This document shows positions 41,110 through 59,812 of a stretch of DNA of 64,000 bases, in pieces. The translations under genes and the position numbers were made by a program. The stretch is from positions 1 to 64,000 of the forward strand of contig NZ_FNVA01000009.1 in assembly GCF_900108185.1 (NCBI RefSeq). Direction: 5' to 3'. The first letter of the stretch is position 1. The number at the start of each line of letters is the position of its first letter. This stretch comes from Bryocella elongata. GTDB taxonomy: Bacteria > Acidobacteriota > Terriglobia > Terriglobales > Acidobacteriaceae. The notes beneath the pieces are model-generated. The model had not been told where the DNA came from, made no database searches, and was given only the letters and a program-made list of their open reading frames with translations.

Positions 41110-42273
41110 TCATCGCGCGGCAGCTGCAGGCTGTTCGGCACTCTCCGCTTTCCCTCGTCCCGTCATCTGACGCAGAAGGTCAACCTCGTGTTGGCGGTAC
41201 GGCGTATCGTCGGCCTTGAAGACGTCGTGAAACCAGACGGCGGGGCCTTCCGAGACATACGGTCGCTTCCAGGAGTCCCATGGGAGGTACGTCTGCGTCT
41301 TGCCCGCGACGAGTCCCCAGTTGATAACGGCTACGCGTTCGCGCTTGGCTATCGGCAGGATCGTGTCGAAGGTGCTGCCATTCCCTCGCGCCATGTACTC
41401 CGTGCAGATCAACGGACGCCCTGTTGCCCTCAACTCTGCTATCCGTGCTTCGAAGCCCTCCGGCCAGTCATAGTTGTGGAAGGTGATCACGTCAGACTCA
41501 GCGAGCTGGATCTTCGTCGTTGCGCTTTCCTTGCGCGGGTCGGTCCAGTTCCCTGTCCACATACCGCTGGTCAAAGGCTGCTGTGGCCGTTCGGTTCTCG
41601 CCCAGGCAAAGACGCGAGGCAGCAGTTCATTGACGCGCCGCACCTTGTCTTTCACATCCTCCTCGACATCACGGCCCTGATTGTCCGGCTCGTTCCATAC
41701 ATCCCAGGCAAGAACGCGATCGTCATTCGCGAAGGCGCCGATCACTCCCGTGACGTAAGCCTTGAGCTGTGGCTCTACCGTTGCATCGAGCAGCCGTGCC
41801 TTGCCAGGGCTCTGCACCCAGCCCGAGTTGTGAACTCCTGGGATAGGCGGATGCTGTGGTCCGAGATGCGGGTTGGGCTCCCAGCAGGAATCGAAGAGAA
41901 CCAGAACCGGCCGAATATGATGCTTCGCTGCGATTGCCAGGAATTCATCGAGTCGTTTGCGTGCGCCGGCCGGATCATTGAGCCACCATTGATCCTGAAG
42001 GAACACACGGACTGTGTTCATACCGATCCCCTCTGCTAATCCAAGCTCTTTGTCGTTCAGTCGGGCATTGAAGGTTGCGTCCTGAAACATCTCAAGCTCG
42101 TTGATCGCATCTGATGGAACATAGTTGGCTCCCACAAGCCAGGGCTGTCGGTCGTACCATTCGTTGGCGTGCTTTGCGGTCCAGCGTTGGCCTGGAGCTT
42201 GCGCGATGCCGCTTCCAGCCAGCGCTGCCATCAACGTCAGAAGTGCGCAATACCGTACAACTCTTTCCATCAT
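41110..42273 (-). CDS. Secreted GH5-like glycoside hydrolase
   Basis: The 387-residue protein has a signal peptide (YCALLTLMAALAGSGIAQ) and a clan GH-A TIM barrel. The acid/base glutamate lies in AWDVWNEPDN (Glu195) and the nucleophile in PLICTEYMARG (Glu292). FHNYDWPEGF and INWGLVAGKTQ line the cleft. The substrate is probably a beta-mannan, glucan or arabinogalactan side chain; subfamily cannot be fixed by eye. GAGGGG lies 6 nt before the ATG. It follows the GH43 gene by 197 nt on the same strand. Confidence 0.85.
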   Translation of the reverse strand: MMERVVRYCALLTLMAALAGSGIAQAPGQRWTAKHANEWYDRQPWLVGANYVPSDAINELEMFQDATFNARLNDKELGLAEGIGMNTVRVFLQDQWWLNDPAGARKRLDEFLAIAAKHHIRPVLVLFDSCWEPNPHLGPQHPPIPGVHNSGWVQSPGKARLLDATVEPQLKAYVTGVIGAFANDDRVLAWDVWNEPDNQGRDVEEDVKDKVRRVNELLPRVFAWARTERPQQPLTSGMWTGNWTDPRKESATTKIQLAESDVITFHNYDWPEGFEARIAELRATGRPLICTEYMARGNGSTFDTILPIAKRERVAVINWGLVAGKTQTYLPWDSWKRPYVSEGPAVWFHDVFKADDTPYRQHEVDLLRQMTGRGKAESAEQPAAAAR

Positions 42274-42470
42274 TCAATCCCCTCTGGACACATCGGTCTT
42301 CGCGGCTACGGCGGGTAATCACCCCAACGCTTGCAGTTCGTCTGCGATCTACCCGGACTCTTCGGCAGCCACAAGCTCGTCCAGAGAAGAACCGCAATAT
42401 AGATCGCCGATCCATTCTCCACTCCTCCTGGGCGATAGCGGTACGAAACATCCACGAGGTCTGTAATCCA

Positions 42471-43436
42471 TCAGGGTTCAATCGGCCCATCTTTCTTTGG
42501 ACTGCCGAAGTTCGGTGTGCCGTCTGCGTTCCAGGTAAAGCGCTGCGCTCGAATCTCGCGATGGGCCGCATTGGGAGCATCGGTTGACTTGGCCGCATAC
42601 AACAGCCACATGGCGCCGTCCTTACCCTTGGCAAACGTGCCGCGTCCCGGCCCAAAGATGGAGTTCTCCGGCGACCACGCAAAGACCGGATGCGGGGTCT
42701 TAATCCAGTTGCCAGGCACCATCGGGTCTTTCCCCACGAGAGTCAGCAGGCCAAGGCAATATCGCGGAGATGCAGTATCGCTTGCCGAGAAGACGACGAA
42801 CGTCTTGCCGCCGTGATAGAGAGCCGTAGGACCCTCGTCGACGGGATAGTTGCGCGTGGTGCCTTCTCCCTTCTCCCATCCAGCTTCAGGATGAGCGATG
42901 AGCGCACCCTCTCCGTCAAACTCTGTCGGCGTCTTGAGCTTGCGAATCCAGGTGTCATTCGCACCGCTGTCTACGGTGACGTACATGAGATAGTGCGACT
43001 TGCCGACTACAAGAATTGAGGGATCGATCGAGGCCCGCCCTGTCTCGAGTGCCCCCTTGAACACATATGCTCCAAGCACATCATCGGCCTCAGACTCGAG
43101 CACGTAGATCTTGTGCTTCTGGCCTGTCATCTGCGCCGTAAAGTACACCCACCAATGCCCATCGATCTTCCACACCGTAGGCGACCATGTTTGGGTCATC
43201 CCCTCCATGGGCGTGTAGATCACATAAGGCGTCGTCGAAGAGGTCTCGGGTATCGGCCCGGTCCACAATGTGATGTCGCGGCCCGTGGCCGTCAATACAT
43301 ACTGCCCATCCTTCGTCACGGGATCGAAAGTGATGAAAGGATCTGCGTGCGAGAGGATCGGATTGCTCGCCTGCGCCAGCGCGGAGGCTCCGAGGCATAG
43401 CCCCGCAAGAGCGGTCAGGACACTTCTTCGAAACAT
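42471..43436 (-). CDS. Secreted GH43-family arabinanase/arabinofuranosidase-type enzyme
   Basis: The 321-residue five-bladed propeller has a signal peptide (VLTALAGLCLGASALAQ). The catalytic pattern is ILSHADPF (base Asp32), SIDPSILVVG (pKa modulator) and VDEGPTALYHGGK (acid Glu). The enzyme should release arabinose or xylose from pectin side chains or xylan. AAAGGA lies about 10 nt before the ATG. It lies 118 nt after the TonB receptor on the same strand, with a long hairpin between them, so it is likely the second gene of that operon. Confidence 0.85.
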   Translation of the reverse strand: MFRRSVLTALAGLCLGASALAQASNPILSHADPFITFDPVTKDGQYVLTATGRDITLWTGPIPETSSTTPYVIYTPMEGMTQTWSPTVWKIDGHWWVYFTAQMTGQKHKIYVLESEADDVLGAYVFKGALETGRASIDPSILVVGKSHYLMYVTVDSGANDTWIRKLKTPTEFDGEGALIAHPEAGWEKGEGTTRNYPVDEGPTALYHGGKTFVVFSASDTASPRYCLGLLTLVGKDPMVPGNWIKTPHPVFAWSPENSIFGPGRGTFAKGKDGAMWLLYAAKSTDAPNAAHREIRAQRFTWNADGTPNFGSPKKDGPIEP

Positions 43437-43487
43437 GATTCACGATCCTTTGTTGCCCGACATATGGGAAGACGTGAAGAACAAATC

Positions 43488-43534
43488 GCGGATGCGGCCA
43501 AATCGCTTATCTACACGATAAGAGCCGCATCCGC
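43488..43534 (-). terminator. Long nested hairpin between TonB receptor and GH43 genes
   Basis: GCGGATGCGG (43488-43497) pairs with CCGCATCCGC (43525-43534), and an inner CTTATC/GATAAG stem nests inside. It may be a partial terminator or an mRNA-stabilising element that sets different receptor and enzyme levels. Confidence 0.65.
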
Positions 43535-43554
43535 CTGGAGACTGGGCGAACGAT

Positions 43555-46500
43555 CTAGAACGCCACGCGGAACTGCACGTTCAGGTTGCGCGGCGGCGAG
43601 TCCGTCGTCGGCGTTGTTCCTTGATTGACGGTGCCAAAGGCTACGCCGTCATTCGGGTTAATGTCGAACTTCGCCGTCTCAAGATTGAAGTGGTTGAGAA
43701 CGTTAGAGGCCTGCAGACGAATCGTTGCGACGATAGGCCCACGAATCTGGAACGACTTCTGTATGCCAGCGTCCGACATGATCACCGGCTTCATGCGGAG
43801 AAAGCTGGCATAGGTCGGATTCGTCTGCTCATTCGTCAGCACAGGGACGGTCTTCCAGTCGTACTGAGTCATGTCCGTGCCGCAGCGGGTCGCCATGGCG
43901 CCGGTATTACCACCGGGAATGCTGACCACACCGTTGGTCTGGCTCAGCACGCAGCTTCCCCATGCCTGGACGGTGTTGTTCTTCCAGTTCGGCTTGAGGA
44001 ACTTGTTATGCGGAAGCATCACAGCGTTCGTCGGCAGTGTGGCCGGTTCGCCACTCTCCACCTGCAGTGAAGGAGAAAACTCCCAACCGCCGATGAAGCC
44101 ATCGATAATCCGGTTGCCATGGAAGTTGAAGAGGCGGTCCCGCCCAAAGGGCAGTTGGAAGACACCGGAGAGCTTGAAGACCTTCGGGATGCCGAACTGA
44201 TAGACGCTGTGCTGCGTGATGTTCAGCGACTGGCTCATCCAGCCGGTTTCGTAGATCATCTTCGACCACACGTAACTCGTATTGAACGAGATACCGTGAC
44301 TCATACGCCAGTTATAGGAAAACTGCGCGCCGTTATACCAGCTGTAACCACGGTTGATGGCCGCCAGAGTAAGTGCGCCAAACTCCGGATGCGGCCTGTT
44401 CGCATTCAGAGCTGAAATTGTCGAGCTCGTGTAGTAGTTGGTCCCGGCGAAGGGAGCAATCCCCTTGAACGGGTTGGTCTGCGTTGCACTGCAGTTCTGT
44501 GTCTTGCCGCTGACGTAGACCTCATCGCAAGTCTGCAGGAAGTTCCAGTTGGGCAGGTTCTCATCCATCGACATCGGATATCCCCGGCCGTAGTTGCCAA
44601 CATAGGACGCTTCGAAGACGCTGGCCTTCGTCCCTCGGTATTGGAAGCCGAACGAAAACTCGTGTGCGCTCGGAACCTTGAACCCGCGATTGAAGGTAGT
44701 GAATGCCTGGCCCAGGCCCGTAAGGCTGCCAAGCGCCGAGCCCTGCGGTTGAATGAGGCCGGTAGGAAACGGGTTGCTAAGCACATTCGAGATCGGCGTC
44801 ATGCCACTGTTATTGGAGGTAATGAGTGCCGTCGATTGCGAGAAACCAAGATTCTGAATCTCGTTGTTGTTGACGAAGTTTGTATAGAACAACCCATAGC
44901 CACCACGAACAGAAAGCTTCCGAAAGGGTGAATACGCAAAGCCGAAGCGCGGCTGAATGTTGTGATACACGTTCGTGATCGGTGAGCGAGGCGCTCCATT
45001 GACGTTAGCGAACTGCAGGCTGCCGGTGAGATTGCTCGCCGATGGAAGCGCTGCGATCGAAGCCGACGTGATCTGGGACTGAACGGCATTAGGCGCGTTC
45101 AGATCAAAGCCAACATCAAGCGCGTCGTGCTTGTCGATCGGCCCGGTGAGCAGATCCCAGCGGAGGCCAATGTTCAAGGTGAGCTTGCTATTGACGCGCC
45201 AGTCGTCCTGAAACCACGGTGCGGTGTACCAGCTCGAGACCTGGTAGACAGCGTTCAACGGCGAAGCTCCCGAAGACGGCGTACCCAGAAGGAACGTCGC
45301 GAATCCGTCTCCGCTGGTGGCTTGTGAGTTTGTGTTGGTGTAGTCCGTGCTGGTCCAATCACTGTTCGAAGTCAACGTGAAGTAACCTGGGTTGATGTAG
45401 CTGAAGTGGGTCAGGCGCACGTCCCAGCCGACGCGAAGATTGTGCGCTCTAGCCGTGCGCGAGAGGTTCCCTTCCCACGAATAGTTTCCAGTGTCCTCCA
45501 CGTTGTCGAACCAGCCAAGTGGGCTGTAATTCTGAAAGGCATAGTCGCCGAAGAAGTTCTGTTGTTGCTGTTCGCTGTTGAGACTTGCAGGGAAGCCCAG
45601 CGAGGTGAGGTCATAGTTCTGGTTCGCCGGCGTCGTCCACTTCACGCGGAAAAATGTGTAGCCGAAGCGCGCGTTCAGAACCGTTTTGGAGTTCATCACA
45701 TCGACGAAATCCACCAGGTAGCCCTTACTAGTGCGATGGAAGGTACCACCGTTTTCTCCCGGCCCGGTTACGCCACCCGCATTGCTGACCTCAGAGAAAT
45801 CGGCATTGAACGGGCGCACGAAGAAGCGGTACTTATCGCCAATGGCGAAGTCGAAACGGCCTACAACGTTGTGAAAGTGCCAGTTGTAGTAGTTATTCGG
45901 AATACTAAGGTTGTTCGTGCCAGGACGCTGGCCATTCGGCGTGCTACCCACGGCAGGAAAGAGCGCAGCAATCTTGGCGGCGATGGGATTGATCATGCCC
46001 GAAGGAATGATGTTCCCCGGGAAAGGATTCCGGATGTAGTGGTTGTACGTCGCGCTTGTTGGGTTCGTGTCGAGATGCGTCGAGGTGGGGTCCGCAATCG
46101 TGATCGATTGATAGCCGTTCGTCGGATTGAGGAGTTCGGAGAAGTCACCCGTGCGCATCTTGGCGGTCGGGTAGGAGAGGATCAGGCTGCGAGGCAGGAG
46201 CTCGGAGTAGTGATCGAATGCAAAGAAAAAGAATGGCTTGTATTTGGCCGACTGGCGTAGGACGTGCGGGATGAAGATAGGGCCGCCAACCTGGAAACCA
46301 AGCTGGGTCTGGGTGTTGAACGGTGTGATGTTCGAGGTCGTGTTGTTGATGGAGTTGAGGTATTTGTTCTGCGAGGTGTTCGCGTTCCAGCCGGTGCGAC
46401 GCAGTGAACTCCAGAACATACCCTTCAGCTGCGAAGTGCCGGATACGGTCGTCGTATTGATCGCACCACCGCTCGTGTGCCCGTACTGTGCGTCATAGTT

Positions 46501-47208
46501 ATTCGCACTTACTGTGAACTCCTTCACGGCGAACTGCGGAAGAACATAGGCGTAAGTGTCAGCACCAAACTCCGCATCGTTCGGACTGCCGTCGATGAGG
46601 AACTCGTTGAGATACATCAGTCCACCGTTGATTTGAAACTGCGACGTGACCGTCCATGGATCGGTGTACACACCCAGCGGCCGCATGAAGACACCGGGAA
46701 CCTCGTTGCCGAGCATGATGGGGTTACCGTTGATGACGGGCAGGTCCTGCACTTCCTTCTGCTCGATGCTGTACGCGCGGCTGGCAGATTCGGTCTGTAG
46801 CAGCGCAGGCTCTTCGGTCACAGTAACCTCTGCGGTCTGCGAACCCACCTTCAACTTCACTGGGACGCTTGTAGCCGCATAGGCCTGGAGCGCAATACCC
46901 TTTACCTCCGCAGGAGCCATGCCGGGAGCCGTGATGGTGAGGTCGTAAGTGTCCGGCTCAAGAAACTGGAAGATGTACGCGCCCTGGGCATCGGTCTTGG
47001 CCGTGGTTACCTCTTTGGTGCTCACTCGCATGAGCTTCAACGTCGCTGCGGGGAACATCGCGTCCGCGGCATCCTTGACCTCTACCGTGATCTTGGCCCG
47101 GTAATCCTGAGCGGTTGCGTGGGGCACAACTCCAATCCACGTAAAGAGTACGAGCAGTGCGATCACCGTCGTCCAAACCGGCATTCGCCTGGTGCGTTGC
47201 TGTTCCAC
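43555..47208 (-). CDS. Oar-like TonB-dependent receptor
   Basis: This 1217-residue outer-membrane receptor should import oligosaccharides using TonB energy. It has a signal peptide (TVIALLVLFTWIGVVPHATAQ), a carboxypeptidase-regulatory-like domain at about residues 37-120 (AATLKLMRVSTKEVTTAKTD, GAYIFQFLEPDTYDL), a plug at about 130-260 (NEFLIDGSPNDAEFG, SGGAINTTTVSG) and a 22-strand-type barrel ending NVQFRVAF. The GTG start at 47208 is preferred over ATG at 47283 and 47184: AGGAGG lies 8 nt upstream and the signal peptide is then well placed. It is divergent from the response-regulator gene, with palindromes between them. Confidence 0.93.
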   Translation of the reverse strand: MEQQRTRRMPVWTTVIALLVLFTWIGVVPHATAQDYRAKITVEVKDAADAMFPAATLKLMRVSTKEVTTAKTDAQGAYIFQFLEPDTYDLTITAPGMAPAEVKGIALQAYAATSVPVKLKVGSQTAEVTVTEEPALLQTESASRAYSIEQKEVQDLPVINGNPIMLGNEVPGVFMRPLGVYTDPWTVTSQFQINGGLMYLNEFLIDGSPNDAEFGADTYAYVLPQFAVKEFTVSANNYDAQYGHTSGGAINTTTVSGTSQLKGMFWSSLRRTGWNANTSQNKYLNSINNTTSNITPFNTQTQLGFQVGGPIFIPHVLRQSAKYKPFFFFAFDHYSELLPRSLILSYPTAKMRTGDFSELLNPTNGYQSITIADPTSTHLDTNPTSATYNHYIRNPFPGNIIPSGMINPIAAKIAALFPAVGSTPNGQRPGTNNLSIPNNYYNWHFHNVVGRFDFAIGDKYRFFVRPFNADFSEVSNAGGVTGPGENGGTFHRTSKGYLVDFVDVMNSKTVLNARFGYTFFRVKWTTPANQNYDLTSLGFPASLNSEQQQQNFFGDYAFQNYSPLGWFDNVEDTGNYSWEGNLSRTARAHNLRVGWDVRLTHFSYINPGYFTLTSNSDWTSTDYTNTNSQATSGDGFATFLLGTPSSGASPLNAVYQVSSWYTAPWFQDDWRVNSKLTLNIGLRWDLLTGPIDKHDALDVGFDLNAPNAVQSQITSASIAALPSASNLTGSLQFANVNGAPRSPITNVYHNIQPRFGFAYSPFRKLSVRGGYGLFYTNFVNNNEIQNLGFSQSTALITSNNSGMTPISNVLSNPFPTGLIQPQGSALGSLTGLGQAFTTFNRGFKVPSAHEFSFGFQYRGTKASVFEASYVGNYGRGYPMSMDENLPNWNFLQTCDEVYVSGKTQNCSATQTNPFKGIAPFAGTNYYTSSTISALNANRPHPEFGALTLAAINRGYSWYNGAQFSYNWRMSHGISFNTSYVWSKMIYETGWMSQSLNITQHSVYQFGIPKVFKLSGVFQLPFGRDRLFNFHGNRIIDGFIGGWEFSPSLQVESGEPATLPTNAVMLPHNKFLKPNWKNNTVQAWGSCVLSQTNGVVSIPGGNTGAMATRCGTDMTQYDWKTVPVLTNEQTNPTYASFLRMKPVIMSDAGIQKSFQIRGPIVATIRLQASNVLNHFNLETAKFDINPNDGVAFGTVNQGTTPTTDSPPRNLNVQFRVAF

Positions 47209-47285
47209 TTGCGTTTCCTCCTGAACGTGCCGCACGAGGCCATGCGCTCCCGGTGGACGCTGGGAAGTCGCGCGCGTAAACATGT

Positions 47286-47316
47286 GGCACTAATGAACAG
47301 CGAGAACGTTAGTGCC
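47286..47316. promoter_or_regulatory. Inverted repeat GGCACTAA/TTAGTGCC in the receptor leader
   Basis: GGCACTAA (47286-47293) and TTAGTGCC (47309-47316) are perfect 8-bp inverted arms with a 15-nt spacer. They lie about 80-110 nt before the receptor start, and could be an operator or an mRNA hairpin. Confidence 0.45.
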
Positions 47317-47359
47317 GCTGGAGAGCGATTGACAATCGGAACAATCGACCAATCTCGGA

Positions 47360-47389
47360 TAGGACATATGTCCTACGATGAGAGGACAT
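47360..47389. promoter_or_regulatory. Palindromic operator candidate TAGGACATATGTCCTA plus half-site
   Basis: A perfect 16-bp palindrome (47360-47375) lies between the divergent TonB receptor and NarL-type regulator. The half-site AGGACAT repeats at 47383-47389, 22 bp (two turns) from the first. The palindrome recurs with two mismatches at 51239-51254. It is the best candidate binding site of the neighbouring response regulator. Confidence 0.7.
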
Positions 47390-47442
47390 TGCGTATCACG
47401 CAGAGGGAGACGTACGATGGGTTGCTTTACGGAAGGGACCAC

Positions 47443-48090
47443 ATGCTGACGGACTTTACCGCAACGAAGCAGATCAACATCCTCATCGTGGATGATCATC
47501 CCGTCGTTCGACAAGGTCTGCGAGCCATGCTGTCGAGCGAGCCCGACTTCGTTGTATCGGGGCTAGCTGCGTCTGCAAGAGAAGCTCTGACGCAGGTCCA
47601 GAGGAACCAGCCGGATGTTGTCCTGATGGATCTCCGCATGCCCGAGATGGAAGGCACCGATGCCATCGTTGAGCTACGCAAGATTGCGCCCGGTATCCGC
47701 ATCCTCGTGCTGACGAACTACGGGTCGGACGAGTACATCGTTCGAGCAACGCAGGCGGGCGCGATGGGATACCTGCTCAAGAACACACCACAGGAGGAGA
47801 TTGTGAAGGCCGTGCGCATGATCTTTCAGGGCGAGCGATACGTGCCCAAGGTCATCGCGCAACGCTTATTCGAGGCCATTGGTCGCGAGGAGCTGAGCCA
47901 GCGAGAGCTTGAGGTCCTTTCACTGGTGGCGCTCGGTTGCACGAACAAGGATGTCGCCCAACGTCTGTTTATAAGCGATAAGACCGTTCGCAACCACGTG
48001 ACCGGCTGCCTGTTGAAGCTGCAGGCCAAGGACCGCACCGAGGCTGTGACTCGCGCCATCGAGCGAGGTCTTATCCGCGTGCAGGAGTAG
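47443..48090 (+). CDS. NarL/LuxR-type response regulator
   Basis: The 215-residue protein has a receiver domain (acidic pair DDHP at 18-19, phospho-acceptor Asp63 in VVLMDLRMPEMEG, conserved Lys in GYLLKNT) and a LuxR-type helix-turn-helix near residues 150-205 (LSQRELEVLSLVALGCTNKD, then ISDKTVRNHVTG). ATG at 47443 is chosen because GGAAGG lies 6 nt upstream; ATG at 47368 lies within the palindrome. Its 3' end overlaps the convergent HisKA_3 kinase by 20 bp. The kinase is the obvious partner. Targets probably include the TonB receptor. Confidence 0.93.
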   Translation: MLTDFTATKQINILIVDDHPVVRQGLRAMLSSEPDFVVSGLAASAREALTQVQRNQPDVVLMDLRMPEMEGTDAIVELRKIAPGIRILVLTNYGSDEYIVRATQAGAMGYLLKNTPQEEIVKAVRMIFQGERYVPKVIAQRLFEAIGREELSQRELEVLSLVALGCTNKDVAQRLFISDKTVRNHVTGCLLKLQAKDRTEAVTRAIERGLIRVQE

Positions 48091-50224
48091 ATGCCGTCTG
48101 CTGCCGAAGGCGGAGCAGGTCACGGAATCGAAATCGCTGGAGCAGACTGAGACGCGACAGCGGAAACGTGATCGCAACCCTGGTTCCTACCCCCGGAGCG
48201 CTGAGGATCTCCACGGTCCCTCCAATCTCTGCAGCCCGATGCCGCATGCCGAGTATCCCAAAGCCCTCTTCATCAGGGTTCGCGTCGAAGCCACAACCAT
48301 CATCCTCGATCATCATCGTGGCGGACCGCTTCTCATAGCGCACGATGAACTTGATCGAGGCGGGCGCGCCGTGCGTAATCGCGTTCGAGATGGCCTCCTG
48401 TCCGATGCTGAAGAGGACAGCGCGAACGCGGATGCTCAATGAACGGACCGCTCCCTGCTCTTCCCTGTAAACACGAATCTTTCCGCTGGAGAGCTTGTAC
48501 GTGCGATCCGCCAGCATGGTGAGAAGGTCACCTGCCTCCTCGCTGGACACCGCACCCAGCATCTCGATGGTGTGGCTTGCGTCCGAGTGGCAGCGACTTA
48601 CGAGTTCGGATGTAGATGCAAGCTGATCAGCGATCTCATCGCGCGAGACAGCCGCATTGCGAAGGATGGATGTGCGGAGCCCCTGGATCTGGTAGCCGAT
48701 CCCCGCGAAGCTCTGCGCCATCGTGTCATGGATGTCATGCGCAATTCGCTCTCGCTCGCGCAGGATCGCATCTCTCTGCCACTGCCGGAATCGAAAGTAT
48801 GCAAACTGAACCCACCACGCCAGTCCAACAATCAAGCATGCCACGAAGGCAACGTGTCGAGGCGTCCACCATGGCGGTCCCTGCAACACCTGCACATCGT
48901 CCGGCGATCGCAGAAAGATCAGGAACGGGATGAGATCCTGCGTGTAAGTGCGGCCCAGCACGCACACGCCGCGGAGCCTTAGCTGGCTATCGACTCGCAG
49001 TGCGCGAAGCGCATTTCCCGAGCGGTCCGGATACAGTGCTCGAAATGTCTCGCCACCCTCCGCCAGGTCGAGCACGTAGTACCCGTTCTCGACATGCGGC
49101 TCGCTCACGAGATGTCCTTCCACCTCAATGAACCGCGCATCGTAAGCTCCGGATGCCGCCTGCCACGGCGTCACGGAGATGGGTGGAGCCGGCGTTCCAG
49201 TGGAGATGATGCGCAACGATCCGTTATCCAGCCGCGCACTGTAGAAGAGTGGATGTACGTCTCCCGTGACTTCGATACCTTCGCCTACGTTTACGCTTCG
49301 CCCCTTTGGGTGACTGATCAACGCACCTCCCGTTGCGTCTTCGATGTAGAGGTCCGGCTCCGTCAACGTCACGACACCGCGCACGACGACGCGCTGCGGA
49401 GTATCACCTCGCAGGCTCGTCAGGTCGCCGAGATGAACCGCTGGACGACGAGGCTCCGGCGTGCCTTGGCTGCGCACCGCGGGGTCCAGCGTCTGATAGC
49501 CGGAGAAATGCTTAGCGTATGCAGCTTCCGTTGTGAGGGGCTCCGGACTTTCTTCGCCGACAGAATGCGCAGCGATCGCATCAAACTCCGCCTTCGTAGC
49601 TGCATGGACGACAACGTTCCGCCACGCACCGCCGGAAGACAGCGAGCGCAGACCAATGCGGCCCGACGATACACAGGGCACCTCACGCAGCACAAGCGCA
49701 GTACTCTGTTGCGTGCTGAGGTTGCGCGCCGATACGGCCAGGCGGCAACCGTACATCACCAGCTGAAGGTGATACCAGATGCCAGGATGCACGCCCCCCG
49801 GTAGAACGGCTGGCTGCACCTCACTCCAACTGTAGTTGGATCTCCCCGCAATCAAGGTATCTTCCTGGGCGCGAAGCCCGGCGTAATAGCCGTTATAGGC
49901 ATCCACTCCAAGGTCTTCGTCGTTCGACCGAATCATCAGGCCAATATCACCTGCAATCTGGTCGATACGCACATCGGCGCTGAGCGACGTATTCGTCCAG
50001 CGAGGCGATCCGCCCATGAGCTTGACGCCGCGTTCTTCGGAGTTATTGCGGAATACGGAATGGTCAAGGTTCCAGACGCCGCCGTAGGACTTCCAGTCCG
50101 TGAGACTGTCGACCGGAAGCTCGTAGCGATCCCTCCGCAGGTGCAATTCATGAACGACAGTCGACAGCAGAGCGACGAGACAAAGGAGAGACCCGGCTCC
50201 AACGATCCAACGATGACGAGTCAT
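48071..50224 (-). CDS. Hybrid-sensor-domain histidine kinase (HisKA_3)
   Basis: The 717-residue inner-membrane kinase has TM1 (about 7-25) and a large periplasmic region. Its first part, residues 42-210 (DWKSYGGVWNLDHSVFRN, SADVRIDQIAGDIGLMIRS), resembles a LamG/DUF1080 sugar-binding jelly roll. A second OB-like part at 265-445 (VVVRGVVTLTEPDLYIEDATGG) follows, then TM2 near 455-475. The kinase core has His496 in RERIAHDIHDTMAQ, the N-box GQEAISNAITHG and the G-boxes DDGCGFD and GFGILGMRHRA. Its start overlaps the upstream lipoprotein stop as ATGA, so both are co-translated. It probably phosphorylates the convergent regulator. Confidence 0.9.
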   Translation of the reverse strand: MTRHRWIVGAGSLLCLVALLSTVVHELHLRRDRYELPVDSLTDWKSYGGVWNLDHSVFRNNSEERGVKLMGGSPRWTNTSLSADVRIDQIAGDIGLMIRSNDEDLGVDAYNGYYAGLRAQEDTLIAGRSNYSWSEVQPAVLPGGVHPGIWYHLQLVMYGCRLAVSARNLSTQQSTALVLREVPCVSSGRIGLRSLSSGGAWRNVVVHAATKAEFDAIAAHSVGEESPEPLTTEAAYAKHFSGYQTLDPAVRSQGTPEPRRPAVHLGDLTSLRGDTPQRVVVRGVVTLTEPDLYIEDATGGALISHPKGRSVNVGEGIEVTGDVHPLFYSARLDNGSLRIISTGTPAPPISVTPWQAASGAYDARFIEVEGHLVSEPHVENGYYVLDLAEGGETFRALYPDRSGNALRALRVDSQLRLRGVCVLGRTYTQDLIPFLIFLRSPDDVQVLQGPPWWTPRHVAFVACLIVGLAWWVQFAYFRFRQWQRDAILRERERIAHDIHDTMAQSFAGIGYQIQGLRTSILRNAAVSRDEIADQLASTSELVSRCHSDASHTIEMLGAVSSEEAGDLLTMLADRTYKLSSGKIRVYREEQGAVRSLSIRVRAVLFSIGQEAISNAITHGAPASIKFIVRYEKRSATMMIEDDGCGFDANPDEEGFGILGMRHRAAEIGGTVEILSAPGVGTRVAITFPLSRLSLLQRFRFRDLLRLRQQTASTPARG

Positions 50225-51198
50225 GGCGTTCCTCCAGTGACTGCGAGTACACGCTGAACGTCGGGTGAATCGACGTTGTCAATCGTCACCAACGTTGGCG
50301 CCACCAGGATCGTGCTGGTCGCTGCGGTCCCTTCCCGCCGGCTGCGAATCCACTGCATCGCCAAGCGCACCATGCTCCCCGTATCCTTTGCGATGACTGA
50401 GTCCATCTCGCCCGTGCGCACGTGATAGACCACATCGAAGTCCTGCTCGCAACCGATCAGAATGACCTTGTCAGTAAGATGCGATCGCGCCAGAACACTA
50501 TAGGCAGCGCGCGTCTGGGTCACGTTCAAAGCGACAATCGCTGCCAGCGAAGGATGCTCTTCCAACAACTGGCGGACTGCATCATCCGCTTCGGGTGGGC
50601 CAAAGATGGATCTCTGCTCGACGAGCCGGACCTTTGGGTGTTGGCTCTGCAACGCTGTCCGCAGCGCATCGTCCATCGCCAGCGAGCCAAGGAAGTTGGG
50701 ATAGACCCCAAGGACCGCAACCTCTTCGTGCTTCGCATCAAGGTGAGGCGCGATGCGTGACGCAGCGAGACGGCCCGTTGCGGCGTTGTCATTCAGCACG
50801 AAGAGCACATCTCCCTTCGGTGGAGCCGCCAGCGGCGTGTCGATGATGGCCACGGGGATGTTCTTCGCAACCGCAGCACGCACCGGGCTGATCAACGCCA
50901 CAGCGTGGTCCGGTGCGAGAATGATTCCCGCAACTCCATTCGCGACCTGCCGGTCGATAATCTGGATCTGCCTCAGCAGATCATCTTCGCGGCTGGGACC
51001 ATTCCAGAAGGTCGCCCATCCCCATGAGCCAGCGATGCGGGCAGCTTGCGCATGCGCCGTCTCCCATACCTCCTGCGCTGTCGTCTCCGGAATCACTGCG
51101 ATCACAGGTCGCTCGTTGCGATGGCAACCGAGCGCTATGGTGAGCGCCAGGAGAACAGAGAGTCGGGGGAGCGTCCCGATGAATGGGCGAAGCCTCAT
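50221..51198 (-). CDS. Periplasmic sugar-binding lipoprotein (RbsB/LacI-fold)
   Basis: The 325-residue protein has a lipoprotein signal with lipobox LALTIALGC (Cys25) and a type I periplasmic-binding fold (RPVIAVIPETTAQEVWETA, QVANGVAGIILAPDHAVAL, IPVAIIDTPL, KVILIGCEQDFDVVYHVRTG, VIAKDTGSMVRLAMQWI). No ABC permease is nearby. It precedes and overlaps the kinase by 4 nt, so it is likely a sensory, not transport, binding protein that feeds sugar occupancy to the kinase. The divergent intergenic region carries the shared palindrome. Confidence 0.9.
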   Translation of the reverse strand: MRLRPFIGTLPRLSVLLALTIALGCHRNERPVIAVIPETTAQEVWETAHAQAARIAGSWGWATFWNGPSREDDLLRQIQIIDRQVANGVAGIILAPDHAVALISPVRAAVAKNIPVAIIDTPLAAPPKGDVLFVLNDNAATGRLAASRIAPHLDAKHEEVAVLGVYPNFLGSLAMDDALRTALQSQHPKVRLVEQRSIFGPPEADDAVRQLLEEHPSLAAIVALNVTQTRAAYSVLARSHLTDKVILIGCEQDFDVVYHVRTGEMDSVIAKDTGSMVRLAMQWIRSRREGTAATSTILVAPTLVTIDNVDSPDVQRVLAVTGGTP

Positions 51199-51238
51199 AG
51201 AGCCGACAGTATGCCACGAACACTACTGAAGTGGCCGA

Positions 51239-51254
51239 TGTGACATATGTCCTA
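51239..51254. promoter_or_regulatory. Second copy of the TAGGACATATGTCCTA-type site
   Basis: TGTGACATATGTCCTA matches the 47360 palindrome at 14 of 16 positions. It lies 41 nt upstream of the binding-lipoprotein start and 105 nt upstream of the sialidase-like start, so either or both divergent genes may be controlled by it. Confidence 0.65.
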
Positions 51255-51358
51255 TCAGTGTTTGGGAGATTTGACGCATTGCGAGCGACCTCTCGCATCG
51301 CGTAGCGTGATCCCGGTTCCACAAGCCTCACGCAGCGCCCTTCCGGGGAGACTACTCG

Positions 51359-52483
51359 ATGATTCGTAAATTGCTGACCTCTGCTCTTTTCCTCGCGAGC
51401 TTATCTCTCTGTGCGCAGGCTGGACCGACGCCCACTGGAGCCCGCACCATGGCGCGAACCTTGATCCCGGAAAGCACCATGTACCCGCGACTGCTTCGAC
51501 TCTCCCATGGCTCTCCGGATACCAATGGCCATCTGATGGCGAACACGAATCGCGAGATATTTCGCAGCAAGGATGATGGCAACAGCTGGGAGAAGATGTC
51601 CGAGGTCACCGCGATCCCGGGCAGCCGTGAGCGTTGTTGCGCCGCGATATGGGAGCTGCCGCAGGACGTTGGCAGATTGAAGGCAGGCACGCTGCTCTTC
51701 TCCGGCACCTTCGTGGAGGGGACATCCGCGGCGATCCAGATCTACACGAGCACTGACGAAGGCGCGACGTGGAAGTATCACTCGACCCCGGTAAAGCGAG
51801 GCGGGACACCGCACCATGGACTATGGGAGCCGGAGTTTCTCCTCGCGAAGGATGGCTCCCTGGTCATCTTCTGGTCCGACGAAACGGACGACTGCTGCAG
51901 CCAGAAACTGACCCAGATGCGAAGCACCGATGGGGTTACATGGAAGGATGAAGTCGACACCATCAAGAGCAATCAGAAGGCGGATCGGCCGGGCATGATC
52001 GTCGCAAGCAAGTTGCCCGATGGAAAATACTTCATGAGCTATGAAGTCTGCGGACCGACGTATCACTGCGCCGTCTACAGTCGCACTTCGAAGGACGGAT
52101 GGCATTGGGGTGAGCGCGGCGACATGGGCACAAAGGTCATCACGACCACCGGGCAATACCTCGCCCACGCGCCCAACAACCACTACATGCCAGATGGCCA
52201 CATCCTCCTGATCGGACAGATGCTGCTGGAGGCGGACGGCAAAGTCTCTAAAGACAACGGAAAGGTCGCCTTCGTCAGTGACGCCAGGAACCCGCTCAAG
52301 CCCTGGACAACAACTCCCGCGCCCGTGCCTATCCCAGCAGCATTCGACAATCCGTGCCCGAACTACTCATCCGCGATGCTGCCTACCGCAGATGGCAAGT
52401 CTTTCATCGAGATTGCCTCGGACTTCGATGATGCCCACAAGTGCTCCGTCTTTGAAGGCATTCTGCCGCTTCCGCCGAAGTAA
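51359..52483 (+). CDS. Secreted sialidase-fold glycosidase (BNR propeller; GH93-like alternative)
   Basis: The 374-residue protein has a signal peptide (LLTSALFLASLSLCAQA) and repeated Asp-box-like turns (SKDDGNSWEKM, STDEGATWKYH, STDGVTWKDE) typical of six-bladed sialidase-superfamily propellers. YPRLLRLSHGSPDTNGHLMA near the start and EPEFLLAKDGSLVIFWSDE line the centre. In a locus with GH43 and GH28 enzymes an exo-arabinanase (GH93) role is at least as likely as sialidase. Cysteine pairs (RCCAA, DDCCS) suggest disulfides. It is divergent from the sensor lipoprotein, with the operator between. Confidence 0.8.
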   Translation: MIRKLLTSALFLASLSLCAQAGPTPTGARTMARTLIPESTMYPRLLRLSHGSPDTNGHLMANTNREIFRSKDDGNSWEKMSEVTAIPGSRERCCAAIWELPQDVGRLKAGTLLFSGTFVEGTSAAIQIYTSTDEGATWKYHSTPVKRGGTPHHGLWEPEFLLAKDGSLVIFWSDETDDCCSQKLTQMRSTDGVTWKDEVDTIKSNQKADRPGMIVASKLPDGKYFMSYEVCGPTYHCAVYSRTSKDGWHWGERGDMGTKVITTTGQYLAHAPNNHYMPDGHILLIGQMLLEADGKVSKDNGKVAFVSDARNPLKPWTTTPAPVPIPAAFDNPCPNYSSAMLPTADGKSFIEIASDFDDAHKCSVFEGILPLPPK

Positions 52484-52653
52484 CGCAACTGTCGAACAGC
52501 CTTCAGGGATCAGAGCCTTCCCTTCTGTGAGGCATTGCAAGTCGAGTTCTCAATCGCAGGCATCGCTGACGACGCGCCGAACGTGAACCGGAACAGTTGC
52601 GGTGCGGTCGGTCCAACGTGGTAGCCACATTAGAGTCGAAGAAGGAACACATC

Positions 52654-53514
52654 GTGGGAGGGAACGACAAGTCGAACACCCCGACGCGACGATCCTTTCT
52701 GCAAGGTGTGCTGCCAACCGCGGCTACGTCCGCCTTGCTCAGAGCCTCTGCTGATGCATCAACAGGAGCTAACGCACAACCCAGCCAGAGTGGCGGCAAG
52801 AAGCTGTTCAACCTGATTTTCTCCAGGCAGAAGGTCAACGCGCGGACGCGCTCTCGCTGGCCGGGCATCCCATCGTTGAGACACCCAATCACGATCGGAT
52901 CGGCCGGGAGGGCATCTTCTTTCGCAATGCTATTTGCACGAATGCCCTGTGCGCGCCCGCGCTCCAGCGTGCTGACCGGCATGTACTCCAAGTCAACGGG
53001 AGCGCTCGACAACAAGGACCTTGAGAAGCCACTCGATTTTTCCTCGGCGAGTTTCGCTGCTATGACAAGCAGCTGATGCATGATCCCGCGATACGTGTAC
53101 CAATCATGATCCACTACCCAAAACTGGCCAAAGCCGGAACGGTGCCGGACGAGATGGTGCTCGATATCGCCCCGAGTGTCCTTCAAATTGCGGGCCTCGA
53201 GCCGCGCCAGGAGATGCAAGACCACAGTCTCTTGCCCCTAGCCACAGCGTCTCCGGCCGACTGGCGAAGGGAGCGATTCTACGACTACTCCGAATTACCC
53301 CGGAGCCGAAGACGTTCGTCCGCACAGTGGTGTGCGGACGGAGTCGAAAAAGCTGATGCACTTCTACACGATGAACGAATGGGAGATGTATGGCCTCGCG
53401 GAGGACCCCGAAGAGAAGCACAATCTCTATGGCATCCCCGAACATGCGAATCTGCAGCAGGGGCTGATGCAAACCCCGGAGCGCCTCGCGGCCGGGATCC
53501 CGGCCCGAAACTGA
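52654..53514 (+). pseudogene. Decayed sulfatase gene
   Basis: Sulfatase sequence is recoverable only by switching frames. One frame gives a Tat signal (TPTRRSFLQGVLP). A second gives AGHPIVETPNHDRIGREG and NAICTNALCAPA, the CxPxR active-site cysteine. The frame then breaks by one base exactly at the following arginine, and the first frame resumes as RSSVLTGMYSKSTGALDN. A further frame gives YDKQLMHDPAIRVPIMIHYPKL, and another GVRTESKKLMHFYTMNEWEM. At least three frameshifts exist, and roughly 200 residues between the N- and C-terminal parts are missing. It was once a sulfated-polysaccharide sulfatase. Confidence 0.85.
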
Positions 53515-53607
53515 GCACGATCATCAGATGTCTTCGGATCTTTAGTCGATTGGCCGGCCCGAATGGAGAGAATCACTTGCTGATCCGGTTCATCCAATCG
53601 TCCAGTC

Positions 53608-54633
53608 ATGAAGAAGATTGGTTTTCTATCCTTCGGCCACTGGACGCCCTCCCAACATTCGCAGACCCGATCTGCATCAGATGTACTCCTTCAGTCCATC
53701 GACCTCGCGGTGGAAGCAGAACGCCTGGGGCTCGATGGAGCGTACTTCCGCGTTCACCACTTCGCCCGTCAACTCGCATCTCCGTTCCCGTTGCTGGCGG
53801 CCGTGGGCGCAAGGACGAAGAACATCGAGATCGGCACCGCAGTCATTGACATGCGGTACGAGAATCCTCACTACATGGCTGAGGACGCAGGGTCAGCGGA
53901 TCTCATCGCAGGTTCGCGCCTGCAACTCGGCATCAGCCGTGGTTCCCCTGAACAGGTAGTCGACGGTTGGCGTCACTTCGGTCACACGCCGAGGCCCGGC
54001 GAAGACGATGCAGGCATGGCTCGTCGACACACCGAGATGCTTCTCCAGTTGCTGACCGGGGACGGCTTCGCCCAACCTAATCCAAGGCCAATGTTCGCCA
54101 ACCCACCCGGCCTGTTGCGACTGGAGCCGCACTCGGGTGGATTGCGCGACCGAATCTGGTGGGGCGCGAGCTCCAACGCCACCGCGATATGGGCCGCAAA
54201 GCTGGGGATGAATCTCCAGAGCTCTACCCTCAAGGATGATGAGACAGGCGAGCCCTTCCACATCCAGCAGGCCGCGCAGATCAGGGCTTTCCGTGCTGCA
54301 TGGAAAGAGGCGGGGCATACCCGCGTCCCTCGCGTCTCGGTGAGTCGGAGCATCTTCGCCCTTGTGACGGACCTGGATTACGCGTATTTCGGGCGCGGAA
54401 GCAACGAAGGAGACAAGATCGGCTTCCTCGACGGGAAGACTCGAGCTGTCTTCGGCCGTTCCTATGCAGCGGAGCCAGACCTGCTGATCGAAGAACTTCG
54501 CAAGGATGAGGCGATCGCTGAGGCGGACACGCTGCTCCTAACGATACCGAATCAACTGGGCGTCGCATACAACGCGCATGTCCTCGAAACGATCCTGACA
54601 ACAGTCGCACCGGCCCTGGGATGGCGGTCGTAG
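53608..54633 (+). CDS. LLM-class flavin-dependent oxidoreductase (luciferase-like)
   Basis: The 341-residue TIM-barrel protein is a luciferase-like monooxygenase. Landmarks are GLDGAYFRVHHFARQLASPFPLLAAVGART, IEIGTAVIDMRYENPHYMAEDAGSAD, LIAGSRLQLGISRGSPEQ and DRIWWGASSNATAIWAAKLG. It probably uses FMNH2 or F420 to oxidise a small molecule. ATG at 53608 matches the family N-terminus MKKIGFLSFGHW; there is no clear Shine-Dalgarno. It lies between a sulfatase pseudogene and the symporter gene, and its link to pectin metabolism is unclear. Confidence 0.88.
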   Translation: MKKIGFLSFGHWTPSQHSQTRSASDVLLQSIDLAVEAERLGLDGAYFRVHHFARQLASPFPLLAAVGARTKNIEIGTAVIDMRYENPHYMAEDAGSADLIAGSRLQLGISRGSPEQVVDGWRHFGHTPRPGEDDAGMARRHTEMLLQLLTGDGFAQPNPRPMFANPPGLLRLEPHSGGLRDRIWWGASSNATAIWAAKLGMNLQSSTLKDDETGEPFHIQQAAQIRAFRAAWKEAGHTRVPRVSVSRSIFALVTDLDYAYFGRGSNEGDKIGFLDGKTRAVFGRSYAAEPDLLIEELRKDEAIAEADTLLLTIPNQLGVAYNAHVLETILTTVAPALGWRS

Positions 54634-58804: not shown

Positions 58805-59812
58805 CTACTTCAACGCGCGCGGCGCACCTGTGGAACTCCGCAACACCAGCGACGTGCCCACGGTATATTGCTTGCCGACTTTGTGTGGATCCGTGCCAAA
58901 ACTGGTCAGCGCTTCATAGAACATCGCCGCAAGCTCAGGGCGTGCGAGGCGAATCGTCGTCAACGGGGGGAAGATGATGTCGGCAAGATCAATATCGTCA
59001 AAACCAATGACCGAGAAATCCTCGGGCGCGCTGAGTCCGTGACGCCGAATGACGCGCAAGGCGCCGATCGCCGTGAGGTCATTCGCGCAGAGAATCGCGG
59101 TCGGCTGGTCCTTAAGCTGGAGAATCTCCTCCATCCCAGCCTCCCCACCAGAGATGCGGTAGTTGCCCACTCGAATCAACTCCGGCCGGACCTTCAACCC
59201 TCCCTCGGCTACTGCCATTTTGAAAGCCTCAACGCGGTGGTCGGAGATCGTGGGGCCTGACGATCCGCCAATGTACGCGACCTTTCTATGGCGAAGCTTT
59301 TTCAGGTGTTGTATCGCCGCGCGCATACCGCTGGCGTAGTCGATGGACACATCGCTCAGCCCACGGCCAGTAACGCGTCTATCCATTGTTACCAGGGGAA
59401 CACGGTGGTGGATCAACGCTTCGATCGGCTCCGTCTCGATCTCCGCCGCCAGCAGCGCCACACCATCCACCTGGCGAATCAACATCCTGCGAATCGTCTG
59501 CTGCATCTGCGAGTAGTGGAAGTCCGTGGTCGCCATCAGCATGTCCTGATTTCGCTCCACGAGAATGCCCTCAAAACTACGGATAAACTCAGGGAAAAAA
59601 GGGTTCGTGATGTCAGGAATGATCAAGCCATATGTGCTGCTCCGGCCATACTTCAGCGTGGTGGCGCTGCCGTTCGGCACAAAGCGCATCTCTTCAATGA
59701 CTTTGCGCACCCGAGCAGCGGTCACCGGCCGGACAACCTTCGATCCATTGATGACGTTGGACACAGTAGCGCTGGAGACGCCTGCAAGCTTCGCAATGTC
59801 CCGCATGTTCAT
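58805..59812 (-). CDS. LacI-family transcriptional regulator
   Basis: The 335-residue protein has the LacI helix-turn-helix and hinge (MRDIAKLAGVSSATVSNVING, written in parts: MRDIAKLAGVSS, ATVSNVINGSKVV; then FVPNGSATTLKYGRS) and a periplasmic-binding-like effector domain (YGLIIPDITNPFFPEFIRS, VDGVALLAAEI, RHRKVAYIGGSSGP, AILCANDLTAIGALRVI, DFSVIGFDDIDLADIIFPPL). It probably represses the GH105-PL5, GH27-GH28, symporter and TonB receptor units through ATACGTAT-like sites; the inducer is probably a pectin-derived oligosaccharide. None of the candidate sites lies right before its own start. Confidence 0.92.
   Translation of the reverse strand: MNMRDIAKLAGVSSATVSNVINGSKVVRPVTAARVRKVIEEMRFVPNGSATTLKYGRSSTYGLIIPDITNPFFPEFIRSFEGILVERNQDMLMATTDFHYSQMQQTIRRMLIRQVDGVALLAAEIETEPIEALIHHRVPLVTMDRRVTGRGLSDVSIDYASGMRAAIQHLKKLRHRKVAYIGGSSGPTISDHRVEAFKMAVAEGGLKVRPELIRVGNYRISGGEAGMEEILQLKDQPTAILCANDLTAIGALRVIRRHGLSAPEDFSVIGFDDIDLADIIFPPLTTIRLARPELAAMFYEALTSFGTDPHKVGKQYTVGTSLVLRSSTGAPRALK

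Follow-up and report, generated by a model that had tools for sequence, protein, structure and literature searches.

A putative three-component sensor coupled to a TonB-dependent receptor gene in the acidobacterium Bryocella elongata

What does a periplasmic binding protein (PBP) do when its gene overlaps that of a sensor kinase and no ABC transporter genes accompany it? The question is raised by a locus in the 64,000-nucleotide stretch of Bryocella elongata DNA analysed here (the window). A sequence-only reading had joined the PBP, the kinase, a NarL-type regulator and a TonB-dependent receptor (TBDR) into one sensory circuit. Based on comparisons across acidobacterial genomes, we propose that the PBP, kinase and regulator probably act as a three-component sensor of arabinose or arabino-oligosaccharide, which would control a local arabinan-uptake regulon. 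The genes concerned are the following.

41110-42273, minus strand: GH5-like (Cellulase family) enzyme, downstream of GH43 (Pfam)
42471-43436, minus strand: GH43 enzyme, downstream of the TBDR (Pfam 2.8e-37)
43555-47283, minus strand: TBDR (Pfam OMP_b-brl_4 5.4e-135 and CarboxypepD_reg)
47443-48090, plus strand: NarL/FixJ-type response regulator (Pfam Response_reg 9.8e-31, GerE 2.4e-17)
48071-50224, minus strand: HisKA_3 sensor kinase (Pfam HisKA_3 1.8e-08, HATPase_c 8.8e-10)
50221-51198, minus strand: PBP (Peripla_BP_4), putative sensor subunit and probable lipoprotein (Pfam 1e-32)
51359-52483, plus strand: GH93-like exo-arabinanase (Pfam BNR_2 1.2e-10; likeness to PDB entries)

From 41110 to 52483 the order is thus GH5-like, GH43 and TBDR genes (minus), regulator (plus), kinase and PBP (minus) and BNR-fold enzyme (plus). 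The PBP stop and the kinase start share the four nucleotides ATGA at 50221-50224, as first read from the letters. Coordinates and Pfam matches also agree with the earlier description of the kinase as convergent with a NarL-type regulator, their 3' ends overlapping by 20 nt, and of that regulator as divergent from the TonB receptor. The PBP and BNR-fold genes form a second divergent pair. The most likely regulator start, picked by eye, is the ATG at 47443, behind GGAAGGGA. Pfam scans of 18 window proteins between 38147 and 63161 revealed no ABC ATPase or permease, in keeping with the reported absence of a permease, and no SusD-family protein, both TBDR neighbours being among those scanned. TBDR genes are common in this genome, where 103 stretches match the TBDR, some being fragments of a single gene. 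Short frames occupy 52597-53849, between the GH93-like and luciferase-family genes; one encodes a partial sulfatase C-terminal domain (SGSH_C), and they are probably a broken sulfatase gene.

The proposed circuit can be judged by whether the four genes are adjacent in other acidobacterial genomes and whether lipoprotein and kinase are conserved together. A scan of contigs retrieved eight loci. Six (L033-L038) contain the PBP-kinase pair, a regulator (beyond the TBDR in L035) and a TBDR with 56-74% identity to that of the window (partial in L036). The remaining two (L039, L040) have a shorter kinase, a regulator and a TBDR and no PBP. In 150 genomes (Bryocella elongata itself and 149 relatives), searched with each sensor part on its own, kinases with the two-part sensor described below occur at 16 loci in 14 genomes, all from the family of Bryocella elongata (f1), with an adjacent PBP match in 16/16. 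Among 396 genomes of the phylum, two-part matches were found at at least 15 loci in 12 genomes, two of them already counted, and all matches scored belong to f1; at most the best four candidates per genome were scored, so absences are not firm. The PBP is present at 13 of the 13 fresh loci. With five named loci added (L035 is G010:C26 and was counted once), the total is 34 loci, window included, and the PBP gene adjoins the kinase gene in all 34. This count excludes L126 and keeps L054 and L158, whose kinases are split over two frames. The fetched stretches include a TBDR at 31/34 loci (absent from L044, L047 and L054) and a regulator at 29/34 (absent from L044, L050, where the contig ends, L053, L156 and L159). 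Lipoprotein and kinase are co-conserved.

The overlap of the pair recurs as well. In 20 of 20 adjacent PBP-kinase pairs examined, the window among them, the genes share an in-frame 4-nt N-TGA overlap (ATGA 10, GTGA 7, TTGA 1, CTGA 2), so that 18 have one of the usual start codons; L054, L126 and L148-L160 were left out of this count. As a separate matter, the helix-turn-helix of the regulators in L042 (5650-6567), L052 (5721-6647), L154 and L155 looks degenerate or misread in the alignment, and the mechanical frames of these four may be wrong.

The kinase itself consists of an N-terminal hydrophobic helix, a CBM66/PF06439-like domain (residues 38-215), an OB-like region (250-450), a hydrophobic segment (about 456-475) and a kinase core. 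HisKA_3 and HATPase_c both score above the Pfam cut-off, and DesK and VraS are among the best fold matches for residues about 467-691. The core contains AHDIHDT, and the phosphoacceptor is probably His499, by likeness to DesK His188. Pfam gave no match over the sensor region when the whole kinase was scanned. Searched alone, residues 38-215 match PF06439 (3keto-disac_hyd, LamG-like fold) with an E of 3.1e-06. Among 34 aligned members, 33 match this family too, and a profile of the members matches the levanase part 4azz, presumably a CBM66, over nearly the whole module (1.7e-07). For residues 250-450, the PF01336 OB-fold is matched by 7/22 members; the window kinase's own region gave no PF01336 match, and the best PDB match of the OB-like region has an E of 0.13. 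The earlier label of a LamG/OB-like sensor was right in kind, its LamG half recovered in the window kinase and its OB half in relatives. The predicted kinase model is poor (pLDDT 62.9, pTM 0.30). Its Foldseek and VIA-align rows, which cover mainly residues 467-691, are neutral as to the sensor folds.

The two parts of the sensor are distributed unequally. Eight distinct kinases have the CBM66-like domain and no OB region (L039, L040, L118-L122, L161). A PBP match occurs in 0/8 of their fetched stretches, where regulator and TBDR are present. Left out of this count were L123, L124 and L125, in which the domain was found and no kinase part, and L162, with the same frames and site as L040. In the kinase tree, which does not include L161, the seven OB-less kinases cluster together within the PBP-bearing ones (support 82/78), a pattern suggesting that OB region and PBP were lost together in a single event; OB/PBP takes a single change in 83% of bootstrap trees. 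L126 (8489-12241) has a PBP, a regulator and an OB-type kinase that lacks the CBM66-like domain; a separate gene on the opposite strand, between those of PBP and kinase, encodes the domain, so it appears to have become detached from the kinase. These two events, the seven-row clade and L126, suggest that the OB region may serve the PBP. Two results qualify this. Across 17 rows, PBP distances track both sensor parts better than the kinase core (r 0.72) or the regulator (0.69), in favour of the proposed sensor. Of the two parts, however, the CBM66-like domain (r 0.85; partial r 0.58) is slightly ahead of the OB region (0.81; partial r 0.43), which counts against docking on the OB region. Many other proteins also have OB-type regions with no PBP match next to them (tables, read by eye), so an OB region alone does not predict a PBP. 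Proteins that each have two CBM66/PF06439-like domains and no kinase part were seen near a TBDR (L123:7933-10053) and near a GH5-like gene (L124:7431-10622).

The same distribution bears on whether the kinase senses the sugar directly through its CBM66-like domain, the PBP merely raising sensitivity or buffering ligand. The eight OB-less kinases keep regulator and TBDR with no PBP, several PBP-less loci (for example, L118 and L120) carry the palindrome described below, and in Ruminiclostridium cellulolyticum CuaSR is reported to perceive cellobiose with or without CuaD (PMC10384115). Yet retention of the PBP beside every two-part kinase, with overlapping genes in the 20 pairs examined, argues that the PBP is needed, and L126 has kept PBP and OB kinase while its CBM66-like domain lies outside the kinase. 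We consider direct sensing unlikely, and favour a sensor in which the PBP takes part. Tentatively, these kinases could be modular, a CBM66-like domain alone serving direct glycan sensing and an OB-like adaptor adding PBP dependence, in an Acidobacteriaceae family of glycan-specific sensors with a common operator code at TBDR/glycosidase loci. If so, they would represent a separate solution to the task performed by HTCS in Bacteroides. As a natural experiment, the OB/PBP pattern may show how a kinase comes to need a binding protein or to work independently of it.

A candidate operator links the genes of the locus. Both divergent gaps contain an operator-like palindrome.

47359-47376, no strand: ATAGGACATATGTCCTAC, in the TBDR/regulator gap, a seed site of the matrix
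51238-51255, no strand: ATGTGACATATGTCCTAT, in the PBP/GH93-like gap, a weaker match and not a seed

The 5.67-Mb assembly contains the pattern GACATATGTC just twice, at 47363 and at 51242, so that each gap has a single copy. A reversed control pattern also has two genome places, in both its short and its 18-bp form, so there is no genome-wide excess and it is the position that is telling; the case for an operator is built on place and on held-out loci. Within the window, three matches with at most one mismatch compare with 1.07 expected, and 13 of 100 shuffles were as high, again no excess. One other near-match in the genome (C10:153178, three mismatches), upstream of a gene read as a sulfatase, was put down to chance.

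A similar 18-bp palindrome lies in the regulator/TBDR gap of L033, L034, L036, L037 and L038. These five sites and the window site, all picked by eye, were the six seeds of a matrix applied at a score threshold of >= 12. Promoter zones were defined as those of the PBP, regulator or TBDR (for the held-out loci, 20 kb in total, with 354 kb outside). An in-zone site was found at 15 of 22 held-out loci, as compared with a mean of 0.11 loci and a maximum of 3 for 300 column-permuted matrices. The four out-of-zone matches in this set are at gene starts, of GH127 in L045, L047 and L048 (the last called GH127 by likeness to L047) and of GH67 in L053. In a later set of 14 loci, in-zone sites occur at 4 (permuted matrices, mean 0.07 and maximum 2) and there are four matches outside the zones; the palindrome is thus not universal. 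The 7/22 held-out and 10/14 later loci with no in-zone site at this threshold include some (L041, L149, L151) with a very similar helix-turn-helix.

We also searched the 150 genomes for ATAGTNCATNTGNACTAT with at most one mismatch. There are 19 distinct places, against six matches of a control, and none in the Bryocella elongata genome. Seven of the 19 are at such systems or at a TBDR: five at the kinase loci compared here, which were already in the 22-locus test and so are not independent of it, one before a TBDR (L139) and one flanked by a TBDR and a regulator of the window regulator's family (L140). Of the remaining places, three are at PadR-type genes and nine are unassigned. The genome with L140 (G067:C7:312823) also holds, on another contig, a PBP-kinase pair (L044) with no regulator in the fetched stretch; the two are possibly a split system. 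At the genes read by eye as PadR-family regulators (L131, L135, L145), the palindromes have the form ATAGTTCAnnTGAACTAT and probably represent a similar-looking operator with no relation to this one. These three matches are also what speaks for the palindrome being the site of some other regulator, for example the LacI-type protein encoded at 58805-59812. Against this, the site recurs at kinase/regulator loci in many genomes, and in L140 it stands between the TBDR and a regulator of the NarL-type family; another regulator would be an improbable owner. We conclude that, with the PBP beside the kinase at all 34 loci, a TBDR at 31 and the palindrome in both divergent gaps and in relatives, the claim of one circuit is strongly supported.

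Which ligand might the PBP present? The predicted PBP model has a pLDDT of 80.7; its best Foldseek match is 4rxt, and the arabinose-binding AraP (6sw4) is at rank 11. Based on sequence and fold searches, the protein resembles those for ribose, allose, glucose/galactose and arabinose, at about 20% identity, so that likeness does not fix the ligand. It is probably a lipoprotein, as first described. Cys25 is present, in the sequence ...IALGC, which is an atypical lipobox, and a lipobox-like Cys was seen by eye in 15/20 PBP relatives, with none in L036-L038 and ambiguous cases in L043 and L051. The only other PBP match in the Bryocella elongata genome at E <= 0.001 (on C10, L060) adjoins genes read by eye as an ABC ATPase and a permease. 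It is very improbable that the window PBP instead binds substrate for an ABC importer with its permease elsewhere, adjacency to the kinase reflecting shared regulation only: ABC ATPase-like genes (by eye) do adjoin PBP relatives in G093 (f2, L055), G050 (f1, L058) and C10 (L060), whereas a PBP is adjacent to 34/34 kinases of two-part type and the clade without the OB region is also without a PBP.

The flanking enzymes point to a substrate. The 51359-52483 product resembles exo-arabinanases (3a71 at 7.5e-27, also 2ydt and 2w5n), which we take to be of family GH93. The GH43 protein has as its top PDB match 9nxj (1.6e-37), a GH43 entry, as is 9nxg, neither with a named activity; it matches the alpha-L-arabinofuranosidase 3akf at 2e-35 and is less similar to beta-xylosidases (3k1u, 7.8e-29). 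With one flanking enzyme like a GH93 exo-arabinanase and another like a GH43 arabinofuranosidase, the substrate of the locus is likely to be arabinan, in line with the earlier proposal that pectin or arabinan be tried as inducer. For the GH5-like protein, the PDB search gave just one weak match, the endo-mannanase 1qno (0.0025); relatives of it lie near the PBP in L035-L038. Elsewhere the neighbouring enzymes vary, as would be expected if the sensors are tuned to different glycans: GH127 with L-arabinose isomerase (L045), GH127 (L047), arabinofuranosidase-like proteins (L052, L121), GH67 (L053), GH92 (L039, L122) and GH39 (L037). Of 20 chosen neighbour proteins scanned with Pfam, four have no family at 1e-4, and some are OPT transporter, TPR, MGH1-like or GtaA/DUF5127 proteins, so the neighbours are not all glycosidases. 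In the PBP-less L118, L120 and L121, the TBDR is followed by a glutaminase A/DUF5127/DUF4964-type protein, which in L033 comes after GH43.

The three-component sensor that we favour would operate as follows. The tethered PBP would bind L-arabinose or an arabino-oligosaccharide from pectin arabinan in the periplasm and dock on the kinase's periplasmic sensor. The kinase, judging from protein families and linkage, would phosphorylate the NarL-type regulator. The regulator in turn is predicted, from footprinting across genomes, to bind the 18-bp palindrome, about ATAGTnCATATGnACTAT, at two divergent promoters, and could thereby control four units: TBDR-GH43-GH5, its own gene, PBP-kinase and the GH93-like enzyme. 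Receptor, enzymes and sensor would thus all come under positive feedback that does not extend beyond the locus.

The sequence-only reading had called this a layout that it could not name. This was overstated, as permease-less three-component systems are known (XylFII-LytS, CuaDSR and AraPST). XylFII has a PBP fold related to that of the window protein (5xss, fold search). XylFII-LytS presumably differs in being Gram-positive, in its kinase and regulator families, in having no outer-membrane receptor to control and in its sensor parts. AraP (6sw4) is among the better PBP fold matches and belongs to the AraP-AraS-AraT sensor system of Geobacillus stearothermophilus, which we take to differ in kinase and regulator types and in target genes. 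LuxP-LuxQ and TorT-TorS presumably differ in having hybrid kinases, other sensor folds and other signals. Ruminiclostridium cellulolyticum, with its CuaD-CuaS-CuaR system, is a Gram-positive bacterium.

Likenesses to these systems are considerable. XylFII-LytS, TorT-TorS and LuxP-LuxQ are presented as binding-protein/kinase systems in PMC6321045: the sugar-binding protein XylFII acts on the sensor kinase, to which it is bound in both ligand states, and in LuxP-LuxQ and TorT-TorS a periplasmic binding protein is docked on the kinase sensor domain. The Geobacillus stearothermophilus strain has an arabinan-use locus (PMC4194401). CuaDSR, in which the two-component pair is accompanied by a second binding protein, is termed a three-component system in PMC10384115; it differs from the window locus in responding to cellobiose and in controlling an ABC transporter.

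HTCS of Bacteroides and others are the remaining comparison, and 2x7x, a PBP-type sensor protein, is a weak relative of the window PBP. HTCS unite kinase and AraC-type regulator in one protein. Here, in contrast, PBP, kinase and GerE/NarL-type regulator are three proteins; the kinase and regulator are separate and the output domain is GerE. Unlike in a SusC/SusD locus, no SusD-like protein is encoded beside the TBDR, nor was one seen among the 18 proteins scanned. As in a three-component system, the binding-protein gene is linked to kinase and regulator genes, with no linked ABC permease among those 18 proteins. What HTCS share with the proposed circuit is periplasmic glycan sensing, which induces arabinosidase and xylanase genes (PMC10766802). 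In covering how hemicellulase genes are controlled, that review lists HTCS, ECF sigma factors and catabolite repression; its main text contains none of the terms acidobacter, three-component and solute-binding.

How the soil-abundant Acidobacteria choose which plant polymer to import is little described. In the literature searched, outside of which most subscription journals lie, we found no description of an acidobacterial system of this kind coupled to a receptor, nor of the sensor or operator seen here. The locus offers a testable wiring diagram: a class of candidate ligands, the two partners of a sensor, and a predicted operator of 18 bp with which regulons could be read from sequence. We conclude that the general layout is already known from XylFII-LytS, AraPST and CuaDSR, and that the receptor-coupled acidobacterial locus would be a variant of it.
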